Assembly: GCA_002715765.1 (NCBI GenBank)
Contig: PAZY01000046.1
Location: 18,534 to 61,182, forward strand
Direction: 5' to 3'
Origin: Rhodobiaceae bacterium
GTDB taxonomy: Bacteria; Pseudomonadota; Alphaproteobacteria; Parvibaculales; Parvibaculaceae
DNA: 42,649 bases
The notes under the pieces are model-generated. The model had not been told where the DNA came from, did no database searches, and saw nothing but the letters and a program-made list of their open reading frames with translations. Position numbers and translations under genes: made by a program. Below, piece after piece: positions 7,925-39,709 of the stretch; within the stretch, counting starts at the first letter, position 1, and every line of letters begins with the position of its first letter.

Positions 7925-9972
7925 CCGAAAAACCAGATCTTCGACCGCGCGTCAGGGGATGGAGACTTGTCCGACCGTTCTTCGCTCTTGTTGCGGGGTG
8001 TGGGCTCATTGGCGTTGGGGTGGCTGTCTACACTTTGTGGCAGGACCGGGTGCGGCAACTGGAAGAACAATTGCTGGCCCTCTTGGCTGCGCAGGAAATC
8101 GTCGTTGCGGATCTTGAGCTGGGTGTAGTTGGCATGGATGGGCTTGAGATTGCACATTTGCGTATCGGGGATGAGGTCCGCCCGGACCTCGCCCTGGAAG
8201 GCGCGCGTGTAAAATACAGTCTGTTTGATCTTTTTGCGGGCGGTGTGCGCGAGATAGAGGCAGACCGGTTGGTCATGCGTGCGCGTTATGAAGCGGGTGC
8301 TTTGCATCTGGGCGCTCTGTCGCCGCTTCTTCAAAACCAGGGAGGTGAGGGCGAGAGCGGTAATATACCGTTCGAGCGCTTGCATGTTGATGCGCTGGAG
8401 GTTGAGCTTGCGAGCCCGCAAGGGCAGGTCGTCCTGTCCACATCGCTGACTGTGTCGGCGGAGGAGAGCGGACTTGCCCTGTCCCTGGGGGACGATTGCG
8501 TTCAGTTTGATACAAGCAGGCTTAACCTTGGTGCGGTGCTGGCGGATGCGCTTGGCGGGCAGATCTGCCTTCGGGACGGCAGCCCCCCGCTCAGGTGGCC
8601 GCTTGCGTTGCCAAGTGCCGGTGTGTCATTGCAGGTGAAATCATCTCCTGTTCATCTTCGTTCTGATAAGCAGGCACTTGTTATGAGCCTGGATGTAACT
8701 GAGATAGATGTTGATGCGAAAGGTCCCTCTTTGTCGGAGGTTGAGCTCGGCCTCTCTTTCGCTGCAATTAACCTGCCCGGCGGGGAGGTTGGTTTGCGCG
8801 ACGTGTCGGCGCAGATCATCTTTCCCGAGCTTGCGCTGCTGCAGGGGCAGTGGGCAGTGGCGCGTGGGCGTCTTGTTGACACAGCCCCCACACAACGTTT
8901 TCAGCCGGTAGCCGTTTCGGGCAAGGGGCAGATGTCGCCTTTGCGTGTCGACTTTGACCTGTTTGCGTCCGATCGGGCGGCGCGGCCGTTGGCGCGTGCA
9001 AACGGTGCGCATGACCTGCTTACCGGTGAGGGGCGTGCGCGGGTTTCTGCGGCCGACTTGCGCTTTGACCCTTCGGGGCTTCAACCGCAAACCCTTTTTC
9101 CCGCGCTTGTCGGGGTTATGACGAATGCGACCGGTGGTGTGTCTGGTGATTTCCAGTTTAACTGGGCGCCGGGACGGCTGAGCAGTGGCGGGCATTTGTC
9201 GTTTGAGCAGTTTGGTTTCAGCACTGCCGCCGCCCGCAGCGAGGGTATTGAGGGGAGTGTTGCGTTCACCAGCCTTGTCCCGCCGCGGACGGCAAAAGGG
9301 CAGACCTTGAACGTCGCTCTTGTGGATGCCGGCTTCCTGCTGGAAGACGGTACGGTGCTTTTTTCGATGCATGAAGACGGTTCTGTTGAAGTGGAAGATG
9401 CTGTCTGGCCGTTCGCTGGTGGTGTTATCCGGCTGACGTCCGGGTCGATTGTTCCTGGTGCAGCTGGTCAGCAGTCATTGCAATTGTCTGTCGAGCGTGT
9501 GGACCTTGGTGAGTTTCTTGATCTTTTTCGTCTTGAAGGCATTAGCGGCACGGGAATTGTCAGCGGTCTTGTGCCGATCATTATCCGGGATGGTGATGTA
9601 TGGATTGACGGAGCGGTGCTTCGCGCGGCGGATCCGGGACACCTGTCGTACAAGAGCGAGACAGGTGATGCTGTCGCCGTAGGCCAAAGCGCGCTTTTGT
9701 TTCAGGCGCTTGAGGATTTTCAATACACAGTGCTTGAAATTTCGTTCGACGGGAATGCACTGGATCGGCTGAATGTGGGTTTGAAACTCCAGGGGGCGAA
9801 CCCGACCTTGTATGATGGGTATCCGTTTTCGATCAACGTAACGACCGAGGCGTCGTTTGCGGAACTGATGCGATCTGCTACGCTTGGGACGAGAGCTTTG
9901 GACCTGGTACGTGAATTTGATTTGCAGCGTGACCTTGACCCCGAAACTGAAAGAGGAGCTATTGTCGAATGA
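7921..9972 (+). CDS. ydbH: YdbH-family AsmA-like envelope protein
   Basis: A 683-residue protein with a GTG start coupled to the preceding small ORF. A single N-terminal membrane segment (about residues 20-42) anchors a long, beta-rich periplasmic part with repeated alternating hydrophobic strands and a C-terminal stretch (VNVTTEASFAELM region) typical of YdbH. In Escherichia coli YdbH is one of three AsmA-like bridges, with TamB and YhdP, that move phospholipids to the outer membrane. The call is strongly supported by the ynbE and ydbL genes that follow immediately. There are no catalytic motifs. The E. coli protein is longer, so this is a shorter family member. Confidence 0.82.
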   Translation: MTEKPDLRPRVRGWRLVRPFFALVAGCGLIGVGVAVYTLWQDRVRQLEEQLLALLAAQEIVVADLELGVVGMDGLEIAHLRIGDEVRPDLALEGARVKYSLFDLFAGGVREIEADRLVMRARYEAGALHLGALSPLLQNQGGEGESGNIPFERLHVDALEVELASPQGQVVLSTSLTVSAEESGLALSLGDDCVQFDTSRLNLGAVLADALGGQICLRDGSPPLRWPLALPSAGVSLQVKSSPVHLRSDKQALVMSLDVTEIDVDAKGPSLSEVELGLSFAAINLPGGEVGLRDVSAQIIFPELALLQGQWAVARGRLVDTAPTQRFQPVAVSGKGQMSPLRVDFDLFASDRAARPLARANGAHDLLTGEGRARVSAADLRFDPSGLQPQTLFPALVGVMTNATGGVSGDFQFNWAPGRLSSGGHLSFEQFGFSTAAARSEGIEGSVAFTSLVPPRTAKGQTLNVALVDAGFLLEDGTVLFSMHEDGSVEVEDAVWPFAGGVIRLTSGSIVPGAAGQQSLQLSVERVDLGEFLDLFRLEGISGTGIVSGLVPIIIRDGDVWIDGAVLRAADPGHLSYKSETGDAVAVGQSALLFQALEDFQYTVLEISFDGNALDRLNVGLKLQGANPTLYDGYPFSINVTTEASFAELMRSATLGTRALDLVREFDLQRDLDPETERGAIVE

Positions 9973-35613: not shown

Positions 35614-35799
35614 GCTATGGAGAGCGTGAAATTCGTATTAAATTCAAAGACTTGTCTGCTTGGGTCGTTGGTTTTGTTTTTCCGGCGGGCCGGTTTGCCC
35701 GGCATAAATTGCCGGACGGGCGGGATTTGCCGGGCGCGGAAGGGAGGGCTTTGGGAGCCTATGATTGCAACCGCTGGCGAAGCGCCTATATTCCCGCTC

Positions 35800-36975
35800 A
35801 TGCGTGACGTGTATGACCCCAAGACGGGCCTGAATAGTTTGGATCTGCCGGGAAAACCGGCTGAGACCCGCGTGGTGGTGGCCATGTCGGGCGGGGTGGA
35901 CTCGTCTGTTACGGCGGCGTTGCTGAAAGAGCAGGGCTATGACGTGGTGGGGATTACGCTTCAGCTTTATGATCATGGTGAAGCGGTGCGCCGGGTCGGG
36001 GCCTGCTGTGCAGGGCAAGACATACACGATGCCCGCGTTGTTGCTGAGCGTATTGGCATTCCGCATTATGTTCTGGACTATGAGCATAATTTTCGCGAGT
36101 CCGTGATGGATGATTTTGCGGATTCTTATCTGGCGGGTGAAACACCTATCCCTTGTGTGCGATGCAATGAGCGGGTGAAGTTTCGCGATATGCTGCAGAC
36201 GGCGCGTGATCTTGGAGCGGCTGCGCTGGCAACCGGGCATTACGTGAATTCCAGGCCGGGTGCTGGCGGGCGCGATCTTTATCGTGGTGCGGACCCGGAC
36301 AAAGACCAATCTTACTTCCTGTTCACGACCAAGCGCGAACAACTTGATTTTCTTCGGTTTCCGCTTGGTGGCCTGTCCAAGGCAGAGACGCGTGCGATTG
36401 CAGAGCGGTTTGGTTTGTCGGTGGCGACCAAGCCGGACAGCCAGGATATCTGTTTCGTGCCCAATGGGCGCTACACAGATGTGATTGAGCGTTTGCGTCC
36501 GGGCTCATCGAAGCCGGGTGATATTGTTGATCTTGATGGCAATGTGCTGGGCACTCATGACGGTATTATCAAATATACAATCGGACAGCGGCGCGGTCTG
36601 GGTATCGCGACGGGGGATCCGTTGTTTGTGGTTCGGCTGGATGCTGAAAAGCGGAAGGTGATTGTGGGGCCGCGCCCGGCGCTTCTGACAGAGCGGATTG
36701 ACCTTGAAGAGGTGAACTGGCTGGGTGATGTTGCGTTCGATAAATTGCCCGCAGATGGAATTGAGCTTCTGGCCAAGGTGCGCTCCACCCGGCCGCCGAG
36801 CCCGGCGCGGTTGATCCCGCTTTCGGGCGGGCGGAGATCGTTCTGCTGGAAGGTGAGGATGGAGTGGCGCCGGGACAGGCTTGTGTTTTTTATGCGCCGG
36901 TTGACGGTGAGGACGAGCGTGTGTTGGGCGGGGGCTGGATCCGGGCGGCGTACAACAAGCTTGGGAATGCCGTGA
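35800..36975 (+). CDS. mnmA: MnmA tRNA 2-thiouridine synthase, C-terminus frameshifted
   Basis: The enzyme thiolates U34 of tRNAs for Lys, Glu and Gln. The PP-loop [14 protein letters not shown] lies near the N-terminus; cysteines in [12 protein letters not shown] and in [10 protein letters not shown] are the catalytic pair; GHYV and DKDQSYFLF are also family motifs. ATG 35800 is preferred; 35761 and 35617 are in frame. After [13 protein letters not shown] (to about 36813) the frame loses similarity, and it stops at 36975. The true C-terminal beta-barrel continues in another frame to 37022. The catalytic domain is intact, but the last ~65 residues are scrambled. A sequencing error is possible. 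Confidence 0.9.
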
Positions 36976-37022: not shown

Positions 37023-37225
37023 GGCTGTTTCTTCGGTGCTGCGCCGTATTCCTGCCGTTTTTTCGGGTTTTCGTGACACTAGTGTTTCACGAGGCAAGGT
37101 TCTCGTTTAAAACAGTCAAAAGCTTATGGGCGATGGCCTTTGTTGGCTGGCGCATGCGTACAAGCGCAGTGGGAAGGCGGATCCGCTGCGATAAATCTAT
37201 TCTTCCGCTGAACTGGGAGCCACCA

Positions 37226-37864
37226 TTGACGGCCTCTGCGCGTCTCGACAGATCATCTGTTCTTAAGGCCTATGCCCGTTGGGCCCCGGTCTATGATGTT
37301 ACATTCGGTTTGATTGCTGCCTTTGGGCGGCGAGCAGCCGTGAACGCGATCAATGCACGCAAGGGCGCGTTGCTTGAAGTGGGCGTGGGGACGGGGATTA
37401 CGCTTCCGACCTACGGACCTCAATTGCGTATTACCGGCATCGACCTGTCACCGGAAATGTTGCAGAAGGCGAAAGACAAGGTTCGCAAACAACGGTTGAG
37501 CAATGTGGATGGCATTTACGAGATGGATGCCAGCCAGATGGAATTTGATGCGGGCAAGTTTGATACGGTTGTTGCTATGTATGTAATGACCGTTGTGCCG
37601 GACCCGGAGAAGGTGATGCGTGAGCTTGAGCGTGTGTGCGCGCCGGGTGGGGAGGTGATTGTTGTTAATCATTTTGCGCAAGACCACGGATTTCGCGGCA
37701 CGATAGAACGCTGGATGTCGCCTTTTGCGCGGCTTTTGGGCTGGCACCCGGATTTTAAGATCGAGACCATTACCGGAATTACTAACCTTGAGTTGATTGA
37801 GGCCCGTTCCATGCATCCGATGGGGCTTTTCACGATGCTTCGGTTTCAGAAACCAGACGCTTGA
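37226..37864 (+). CDS. PmtA-like SAM-dependent methyltransferase
   Basis: About 212 residues from a TTG at 37226, which has GGGAG six bases upstream; a GTG at 37073 in frame would add 51 poorly conserved residues. A class I methyltransferase fold is clear: motif I LLEVGVGTGITLP, acidic loop ITGIDLSPEMLQKAK, a VVAMYVMTVVPDP segment, and EVIVVNHFAQDHGFRG. The size, the YARWAPVYD start and the VNHF segment resemble Rhodobacter-type phosphatidylethanolamine N-methyltransferase (PmtA), which makes phosphatidylcholine. Other small-molecule methyltransferases share these motifs, so the substrate is uncertain. Confidence 0.72.
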   Translation: MTASARLDRSSVLKAYARWAPVYDVTFGLIAAFGRRAAVNAINARKGALLEVGVGTGITLPTYGPQLRITGIDLSPEMLQKAKDKVRKQRLSNVDGIYEMDASQMEFDAGKFDTVVAMYVMTVVPDPEKVMRELERVCAPGGEVIVVNHFAQDHGFRGTIERWMSPFARLLGWHPDFKIETITGITNLELIEARSMHPMGLFTMLRFQKPDA

Positions 37865-38050: not shown

Positions 38051-38127
38051 GGCGGAGTAGCTCAGCTGGTTAGAGCAGCGGAATCATAATCCGCGTGTCG
38101 GGGGTTCGAGTCCCTCCTCCGCTACCA
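38051..38127 (+). tRNA. tRNA-Met (CAT)
   Basis: A 77-base cloverleaf with encoded CCA. The anticodon stem GCGGA/TCCGC (38078-38082, 38090-38094) encloses the loop with CAT at 38085-38087. The T-arm contains GTTCGAG, and the acceptor pairs GGCGGAG with CTCCGCT. The sequence resembles alphaproteobacterial elongator tRNA-Met; tRNA-Ile with lysidine is less likely. Its 3' half overlaps the recombinase gene on the other strand. Confidence 0.95.
38084..38127. other. Putative attachment site in the tRNA-Met 3' half
   Basis: The serine recombinase ORF runs antisense into the tRNA and ends inside its anticodon loop. Such overlap is the mark of an element integrated at the tRNA 3' end, where the attP copy restores the tRNA. 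The exact crossover core cannot be fixed without the other end of the element. Confidence 0.5.
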
Positions 38128-39709
38128 ACTGGACCGCACTTTTTGGTCCTAGTTTGTTCTCCCCGCCCATAATGTTGAGAATGCCAGGCAGGCTGCCAAA
38201 CAGCTGGATATCAAACTGGCCGCGTGCCAGGCGGGGATGTAGCTCGATACGGTCCACCATGTCCCGGATGATCTCGCGGGCCTGGGATTTGTCTGGGCCG
38301 ATACCTTTCAGCGCGCCTGAGAGGTCTTCCATCCGTTTTTTCCACGCTGCGGCCGCCTGTGGATGGAATTCGACCAAGGGATTGTCATCCTCGAGGGCTG
38401 CCAGATCCCGGTCCAGTTGGGCCAGCTCCTGCTCTAATTCAGGTAGCCGCTGTTTGATCGCGTCCGACAGGAGGCCGTCCAGGACCGCCCGAACGCAGGC
38501 ATCAATCTCCCGCTGTACGGCACCTCTGCGCCTGACAAGTTTTTTCTTGTTGCCAAGAGCTTCCTTGCGTAGCCGGGCGCGCTCTTCCTCATAGGCTTTG
38601 AGGGCTTCCTCAACCAGCTCTGGTGCCAGAAGGCGCTGCTGAATGCCGCCTAATACACGCTGTTCCACTGTCTCCAGCTTGATGGTCTGGCCGTTGTTGC
38701 ACACGCCACTTTCGCGGTGACGAGTGCAACCGAGATAGCCGCCACCCTTTGCGGTGTATCCGCCACCACATTTGCCGCATTTGATGAGCCCGGAAAAGAT
38801 GTGGGGTGGTTTGCGGCGCTGCCGGAAGGGTTTTGCGTTGGCGGTTGCCTTGCGCGCCTGAACGGCCTCCCAAACATCGTTCTCGATGATGCGCAGATGA
38901 GGGGCTTCCTCGACCAGCCATTCCTCAGGTGGGTTTGGCCTTGAAATTCTCTTGCCCGTCGCGGGATCCTTCACCATGCGAACACGGTTGTAGATGATGA
39001 AGCCCAGATACCCTTCGTTGTAGAGAATACCACTCCGCCTGGCACGATTGCCGTTGATGCTTGAGGCGTTCCAGTCCCCACCAAAAGGGGAGGGGATGCC
39101 ATCATTGTTCAACCCTTTTGCAATCTCCCGTGCGGTCATGCCGGCCGCATACTCTTTGAAGATACGCCTTACAATCTCTGCCTGTTCGTCGTTGATTGCA
39201 CGCTCGCCTCTTAGCGGTTCACCGCGCGCATCGAGTTGCCGAACAACGTCATAGCCGAAGGCTTTGCCACCAGGCACCTTGCCGGCTTTCACCCGGCCGG
39301 TCTGCCCGCGCCTGATCTTCGCCGCAAGATCGCGGAGGAACACCGCATTCATGGTCCCTTTGAGACCAATATGCAGTTCATCAACTGTGCCTTCAGAAAC
39401 GGTGATCAGCTTCACACCGGCAAAGGTGAGCTGCTTGTAAATGGCGGCAATATGCTCCTGATCGCGGGATAGCCGGTCCAATGCCTCGGCTATCACAATG
39501 TCAAACTTGCCTTCGGCTGCGTCTTCCAGCATGCGTGAGGCAGATGGGCGAGAGGCAAGGTGCGCGCCGGAGATTGCGTAGTCGGCATAGACTTCCGCTG
39601 AGCCGCCGCCAAGCGAGGCCAGGTGTTTTTCGCAGAGAGCTACTTGATCGTCGATTGAGCGTTCGTGCTGGCGATCAGACGAATACCTTGCATAGATGGC
39701 TGCGCGCAT
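38084..39709 (-). CDS. Large serine recombinase (site-specific integrase)
   Basis: A 541-residue protein. The resolvase-type catalytic domain (about 1-150) starts MRAAIYARYSSDRQ with the nucleophilic serine S10; EALDRLSRDQEHI and a FLRDLAAKIRRGQ stretch are conserved. The recombinase domain (about 165-290) is followed by a zinc ribbon (CGKCGGGYTAKGGGYLGCTR with a later VC pair), a long coiled coil (about 370-450) and a C-terminal tail. The last 14 residues, LVAEEGLEPPTRGL, are encoded by the antisense strand of the tRNA-Met gene. It probably integrates and excises the element to its right. It starts after a small ORF and a primase gene on the same strand. Confidence 0.93.
   Translation of the reverse strand: MRAAIYARYSSDRQHERSIDDQVALCEKHLASLGGGSAEVYADYAISGAHLASRPSASRMLEDAAEGKFDIVIAEALDRLSRDQEHIAAIYKQLTFAGVKLITVSEGTVDELHIGLKGTMNAVFLRDLAAKIRRGQTGRVKAGKVPGGKAFGYDVVRQLDARGEPLRGERAINDEQAEIVRRIFKEYAAGMTAREIAKGLNNDGIPSPFGGDWNASSINGNRARRSGILYNEGYLGFIIYNRVRMVKDPATGKRISRPNPPEEWLVEEAPHLRIIENDVWEAVQARKATANAKPFRQRRKPPHIFSGLIKCGKCGGGYTAKGGGYLGCTRHRESGVCNNGQTIKLETVEQRVLGGIQQRLLAPELVEEALKAYEEERARLRKEALGNKKKLVRRRGAVQREIDACVRAVLDGLLSDAIKQRLPELEQELAQLDRDLAALEDDNPLVEFHPQAAAAWKKRMEDLSGALKGIGPDKSQAREIIRDMVDRIELHPRLARGQFDIQLFGSLPGILNIMGGENKLGPKSAVQLVAEEGLEPPTRGL

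Follow-up and report, generated by a model that had tools for sequence, protein, structure and literature searches.

How does the gene of a phage integrase come to end inside a host tRNA gene, and what happens to the end of the enzyme when the element leaves? The question is raised by a recombinase gene in the window, the whole stretch of 42,649 nucleotides that was analysed (G000:C46:18534-61182). Based on the comparison of related genomes, the gene very probably encodes the integrase of a P2-like prophage whose attP overlaps the integrase's own 3' end, and crossover at a GG dinucleotide would give the enzyme a host-coded tail read from the antisense strand of the tRNA.

The recombinase gene and its overlap with tRNA-Met

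The features of the locus are as follows.

37073-37864, plus strand: methyltransferase gene in the conserved chromosomal flank on the tRNA 5' side (Pfam Methyltransf_11; same region in relatives)
38051-38127, plus strand: tRNA-Met(CAT), hybrid (ARAGORN; attL/attR mapping in relatives and in the own genome)
38072-38115, plus strand: B' half of attB, host DNA of the T-arm and anticodon arm (occupied and element-free tRNA-Met genes of relatives)
38084-38116, minus strand: host-derived 3' end of the recombinase gene, codons 532-541 (EGLEPPTRGL) and TGA (host-specific variants with one recombinase)
38084-39709, minus strand: large serine recombinase (LSR), 541 aa in the integrated form (Pfam, PHROG 95, AlphaFold model)
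38116-38117, minus strand: putative crossover dinucleotide GG (CC on the plus strand), tRNA nt 66/65, boundary of codons 531/532 (centre of the attP inverted repeat, attR junctions, change point)
38118-38162, minus strand: P arm of attP, equal to the left half of attL; it encodes the recombinase linker (inverted-repeat matches to the P' arm on contig C37)
39831-42503, minus strand: phage DNA primase (PHROG 1139), the next prophage gene (PHROG; the contig ends 146 bp beyond)

The sole tRNA identified by ARAGORN in the window is tRNA-Met(cat) at 38051-38127 (+), and the coordinates confirm the original prediction that the recombinase ORF enters it from the 3' end and that its stop lies opposite the anticodon loop. 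The TGA at 38086-38084 is the complement of T38084-C38085-A38086, which correspond to U33-C34-A35. The integrated form ends in ...VAEEGLEPPTRGL followed by the stop. The predicted antisense tail was also found, but its length of 14 codons was slightly overstated; codons 529-541 (13 codons) lie wholly inside the tRNA gene and codon 528 overlaps it by two bases. Codons 532-541 and the TGA are antisense to the T-arm, the variable loop, the 3' stem of the anticodon arm and the anticodon loop. The tRNA gene is itself a hybrid, in which nt 1-65 are host DNA and the 3'-terminal 12 nt (38116-38127) come from the attP of the element, with the GG shared.

Judged by its domains, active-site residues and att structure, the recombinase is a large serine recombinase. 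It consists of Resolvase, Recombinase, zinc-ribbon and coiled-coil parts (PF00239, PF07508 and PF13408, each above the cut-off) and matches PHROG 95, 'integrase'. The active-site residues R8, S10, Q22, D78, R79 and R82, for which those of Bxb1 (PMC12884075) were used for comparison, are invariant in 53 homologues. An AlphaFold model built from 53 sequences has an overall pLDDT of 84.7 with secondary structure through residue 515, while residues 519-541 have pLDDT values below 50, so the swapped tail falls in a predicted disordered segment outside the folded domains. Elsewhere in the window, an MnmA-like tRNA thiouridylase ORF (35617-36975) has an odd C-terminus over about its last 60 residues, which resembles a frameshift or sequencing error.

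To see how common this arrangement is, we collected homologues from 41 genomes, 80 loci from GTDB species genomes and 80 virus contigs; for the latter, an alignment query gave the 80 loci and a single-protein query gave almost nothing. Homologues recur at 40-53% identity. Among the 160 loci from GTDB species genomes and virus contigs, the antisense tail stands beside an intact tRNA-Met or tRNA-fMet in 65, at a contig end in 34 and without the tRNA 5' half in 23, and another tail is present in 31. Elongator-Met targets give the same type of tail as in the window and initiator-fMet targets give ...VAGAGFEPATFRL and a stop, both ending at the same anticodon-loop TGA. In this large family of alphaproteobacterial prophages, ending in antisense tRNA-Met or tRNA-fMet is the norm. 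The expectation that LSRs usually avoid tRNA genes does not hold for the family, in which 122 loci end in these two genes.

Those 122, out of 124 homologous loci reading into tRNA-Met or tRNA-fMet, share the same frame and the same TGA, even though the linker from the last folded strand to the tRNA has 18 different lengths among 53 aligned proteins. Considering that about one third would be expected in frame under free indel drift, the reading frame seems to be kept intact across the att site. The V-A pair and the in-frame stop are likewise invariant over the 53 aligned homologues with their variable linkers.

Several loci depart from the common pattern. L105/L184 (Thalassobaculum litoreum, ~11588) represent the only lineage out of frame, with the tail VGSGGGT and a stop in the T-loop, and the adjacent tRNA 5' half is missing. 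L199 (~11639) shows a third tRNA target; the tail of this family member, MAEGGGFEPPIGI, comes from antisense tRNA-Ser(gct). In the fMet elements L277 (G018:C6) and L278 (G020:C6), the recombinase gene is situated at the attR side and runs in the sense direction through the tRNA 3' end; its tail, ...AAAGPRNQ..., runs into the chromosomal flank, again host DNA but on the opposite side.

The crossover site and the structure of attP

The loci with the other tail have a common inverted repeat, GGTTGC-8-GCAACC or GGTAGC-8-GCTACC, and in the genomes of relatives the P' half of this repeat is preceded by chromosomal flank. The attR pattern, consisting of flank, TGGT[A/T]GCGG[A/G]GG and P' arm, was found in five genomes, including that of the window at C37:84577. 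The following elements were delimited in this way.

G020: attR at C2:101180, attL at 153258, 52.1 kb
G024: attR at C1:1085916, attL at 1130626, 44.7 kb
G015: attR at C1:2010403, attL at 1906652, 103.7 kb
G010: attR at C14:7069, attL at 110796, 103.7 kb

Empty sites in relatives, which the original prediction had proposed as a check, were found in the tRNA-Met gene of G022 and the fMet gene of G023. Between the attR flank of G024 and the DNA beside the empty tRNA-Met gene of G022, 7.97 kb align at 81% identity, and the alignment stops at the tRNA. The empty fMet site of G023 is matched by the attR flanks of G015, G010, G021 and G018. The elements thereby have an intact tRNA at one end, a displaced 12-nt fragment at the other and empty sites in relatives, as expected of tRNA-targeted elements. 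In addition, the sequence of the B' half is identical between occupied and element-free tRNA-Met genes of relatives.

Inverted-repeat matches centred on the GG reached a mean of 13.4/22 in 29-30 reconstructed or natural attP sites, compared with 4.2-7.8/22 at other centres within 8 bp and 5.2/22 in 56 attL control sites. The attP is an imperfect palindrome of about 50 bp around the GG and extends over the 3' end of the recombinase gene; this overlap with coding sequence is present in the lineages reconstructed. The contribution of attP to the tRNA is limited to the last 12 nt, and everything beyond comes from the host. From this we infer that the GG at tRNA nt 66/65 is the cleaved dinucleotide. 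Four independent kinds of sequence evidence place the crossover at this position, upstream of the last ten codons, rather than in the anticodon loop: attR and empty sites, the centring of the palindrome, one recombinase in three hosts, and pairs of recombinases with both tails (see below). Separately, a GNAT acetyltransferase gene reading into tRNA-Met has two copies in G012:C4:465411-481034 (L069, L070), where an LSR element seems to be reduced to about 1 kb between its attR-like and attL-like ends.

In the window, the far end of the element lies outside, since the contig stops at the right edge. The exact 12-mer TGGTAGCGGAGG occurs twice in the genome, in the tRNA and at C37:84577, where it is followed by TCCGTAGCAGCCTGGACTGCATTCC, the P' arm (G000:C37:84589 onward). 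The P arm of the window and this P' arm have 14/22 inverted-repeat matches, though they are on separate contigs. The predicted second copy of the tRNA 3' segment therefore exists, but as 12 nt only and not as the tRNA 3' half; searches for a longer repeat of the 3' half failed for LSR elements because these share only the 12 nt. The DNA flanking attR on C37 shows collinearity with the tRNA-Met flank of G024; about 6.7 kb of other sequence separates this conserved part from attR. To the right of attR, C37 encodes a type ISP restriction-modification protein, followed by P2-type portal, terminase and capsid genes and, farther along, by genes for the baseplate and tail fibres. Taken together, the element of the window seems to be a P2-like prophage that measures 39.3 kb or more, with 34.7 kb on C37 and 4.5 kb on C46; its attL and attR lie on separate contigs of a draft assembly in which contamination is 8.2%. 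As the upstream region is conserved in relatives and the downstream region is variable, this tRNA-Met gene is an integration hot spot. Contig C34 had also been considered as the attR contig of this genome, via the native TonB-region flank of G004, and was rejected as there is no tRNA fragment there. The type ISP protein (1629 aa, L290:1134-6023) is cargo adjoining the prophage attR, and a second tRNA-Met(cat), apparently phage-borne, lies inside the G024 element (G024:C1 ~1111567, L064:11568-11642).

Host-coded and free-form tails

These observations suggest the following course of integration. The left half of attP carries the last 12 nt of tRNA-Met, and crossover at the GG would connect the integrase gene to the host tRNA. 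The tRNA is restored from host nt 1-65 and the 3' end of the element, the integrase's own 3' end moves to attR, and the last ten codons and the stop of the integrase now come from the antisense strand of the host tRNA. The att structure, the host origin of the tail and the natural occurrence of both tail states can be read directly from the sequences. Recombinase transcription in the integrated state would also pass antisense through tRNA-Met. Excision would be the reverse, exchanging the integrated tail of the window's recombinase, VAE followed by EGLEPPTRGL and the stop (541 aa), for the one obtained by joining the P and P' arms in silico, VAE followed by VRSSLDCIPPIVVAC and the stop (546 aa).

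The comparison of hosts supports this exchange. In L109 (Chelativorans), L112 (Falsochrobactrum) and L120 (a Rhizobiaceae MAG), the recombinase DNA is 99.6-99.9% identical over 1450 nt up to the GG, and the 32 nt past it differ at 3-4 positions, mostly in the T-stem. Element-free fMet genes with the exact variant of the occupied gene were found, one in Chelativorans and two in Falsochrobactrum, each in the same genome. Because of these host-specific variants, one enzyme ends in VGFEPTTFRL, AGFEPAAFRL or ARFELATFRL depending on its host. Both tail types also occur naturally. L106 and L111 are 100% identical over 500 aa and end in MVAG followed by AGFEPAAFRL and by ACNQRYLRLVERQIPKLAA, respectively, and L099 and L180 are 98.6% identical over 500 aa, yet have both tail types; natural attP-type tails are VAEARYMRNQPSATIIIAC in L180 and VAEERYRRRQPSATITIAC in L321. 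With the last ten codons located downstream of the crossover, excision must change the C-terminus, and the suggestion of the original prediction that it does so gained structural support from the attR sites of five genomes, the host-specific tails and the natural pairs. By inference, both protein forms are made.

An excised circle was not seen, and the virus records with attP-type tails that were checked are all classed as linear. Considering that several attP-type junctions sit in tandem arrays with recombinase-free cassettes, the other tail represents the attP configuration and not necessarily a free circle. In L335 (Acetobacter persici G047:C199), two attP-type sites at 8509 and 18543 are 10 kb apart with near-identical P' arms, and the fetched stretch is without a recombinase of the tRNA-Met/fMet LSR family. 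The fMet att site here seems to gather cassettes that lack a recombinase and that might be mobilised in trans. One virus contig (UViG_3300010220_000126, 42,993 bp) carries two recombinases of this family, L190 and L242, whose attP sites look reverse complementary to each other, with left and right arms swapped.

Whether the exchange acts as a switch is a separate matter. The free-form tail could mark the integrase for proteolysis or alter its directionality, with the host-coded tail removing the signal, an idea with a precedent in the repressor and integrase of BPs, which carry C-terminal degradation signals (PMC4557955). The frame kept despite the varied linkers agrees with it, and A, AA or hydrophobic residues are frequent at the end of free-form tails, with A as the last residue in 15/28 clusters against a background of 13-18%. 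This enrichment was spotted post hoc, so a test on new P' arms was fixed beforehand; among 21 such independent arms, 8/21 were A-ending (p 0.003-0.02) and 7/21 had two small or hydrophobic last residues (p 0.004-0.015). However, the two wrong frames of the same DNA gave A-endings in 7/33 and hydrophobic endings in 9/33, compared with 7/21 in the true frame. As the wrong frames give similar rates, the signal cannot clearly be assigned to the protein, and base composition may explain it. Moreover, the free-form tails are diverse (RVG, ISW, RA, AC, IEI), and in the AlphaFold model the swapped tail is outside the folded domains. We thus consider a regulatory role unlikely. Most likely, the swapped tail is tolerated and not regulatory; even so, the gene stays in frame across attP.

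It is much less probable that the ORF reaches into the tRNA through an annotation error or by chance, with no meaning for the element. The predicted disorder of the last 20 residues and the use of another frame through the tRNA by L105/L184 would fit such a reading, but the invariant V-A pair and stop, together with the overlap of attP with recombinase coding sequence in the reconstructed lineages, argue against it.

A crossover in the anticodon loop, with the element carrying the whole tRNA 3' half and the stop so that excision leaves the C-terminus unchanged, had been suggested by tyrosine-integrase junctions: the 23 homologous loci that lack the tRNA 5' half keep its 3' half through TTATGA before diverging, and TTATGA-type junctions also occur in G016, G020 and G012. 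This reading, now hardly credible, was dropped on the attR evidence, as attR sites of LSR elements hold only 12 nt of tRNA, attP is centred on the GG, identical recombinases have host-specific tRNA halves, and both TTATGA cases checked have tyrosine integrase genes, beside the tRNA in G016:C9 and beside the junction in G024:C2. Phage-related elements with tyrosine integrases are known from rhizobial tRNA-Met/fMet genes (PMC11476347). The TTATGA junctions are best attributed to tyrosine-type elements that entered the tRNA separately, next to an LSR element.

Relation to known systems and implications

With crossover at the GG as the preferred reading, the recombinase resembles serine integrases of the phiC31 and Bxb1 type in its Resolvase, Recombinase and zinc-ribbon domains, coiled coil and catalytic residues, and in a short palindromic attP with a central dinucleotide and short identity between attP and attB. 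Unlike in those systems, attP extends over the 3' end of the recombinase gene, the attB sites are located within tRNA-Met/fMet genes, and the C-terminus of the enzyme is replaced by host-coded residues on integration. The restored tRNA and the displaced fragment at the far end are analogous to tyrosine-integrase islands and prophages of the Islander type (PMC4383910), in which a segment from the anticodon loop or T-loop to the 3' end is restored and displaced (PMC4383910), whereas here a serine recombinase crosses over at nt 66/65 and 12 nt are restored and displaced.

In the integration-dependent immunity of mycobacteriophage BPs (PMC4557955), attP likewise lies inside a phage coding gene and the C-terminus of the product changes. 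There the gene encodes the repressor, which integration truncates, removing an ssrA-like tag, and the function is proven (PMC4557955); here attP is in the integrase gene, the tail is replaced by host sequence and the effect is putative. Archaeal suicidal integrases of the SSV/pTN3/pT26-2 type (PMC8371274) also have attP within the integrase gene itself. These are tyrosine integrases that integration splits into two inactive parts (PMC8371274), in contrast with the integrated serine integrase, which is whole except for its last ten residues and keeps all domains. The recombinase element thus belongs to neither BPs-type immunity nor the suicidal integrases. In the open-access literature, we found no description of an LSR with attP overlapping its own 3' end or with a host-coded C-terminus.

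The family described here is a sizeable addition to the serine integrases whose att sites have been mapped, in this case to essential and conserved tRNA genes, and is useful for genome engineering in alphaproteobacteria. If the switch reading were true, the tail swap would feed back on integrase activity, and the host-coded tail would be a molecular memory of integration, with stability or directionality changed before versus after insertion and between hosts, which we consider improbable. As the end of the integrase gene varies with integration state and host, database proteins of this family ending in ...GLEPPTRGL or ...GFEPATFRL represent the integrated form, and these endings are not the phage's own C-terminus.
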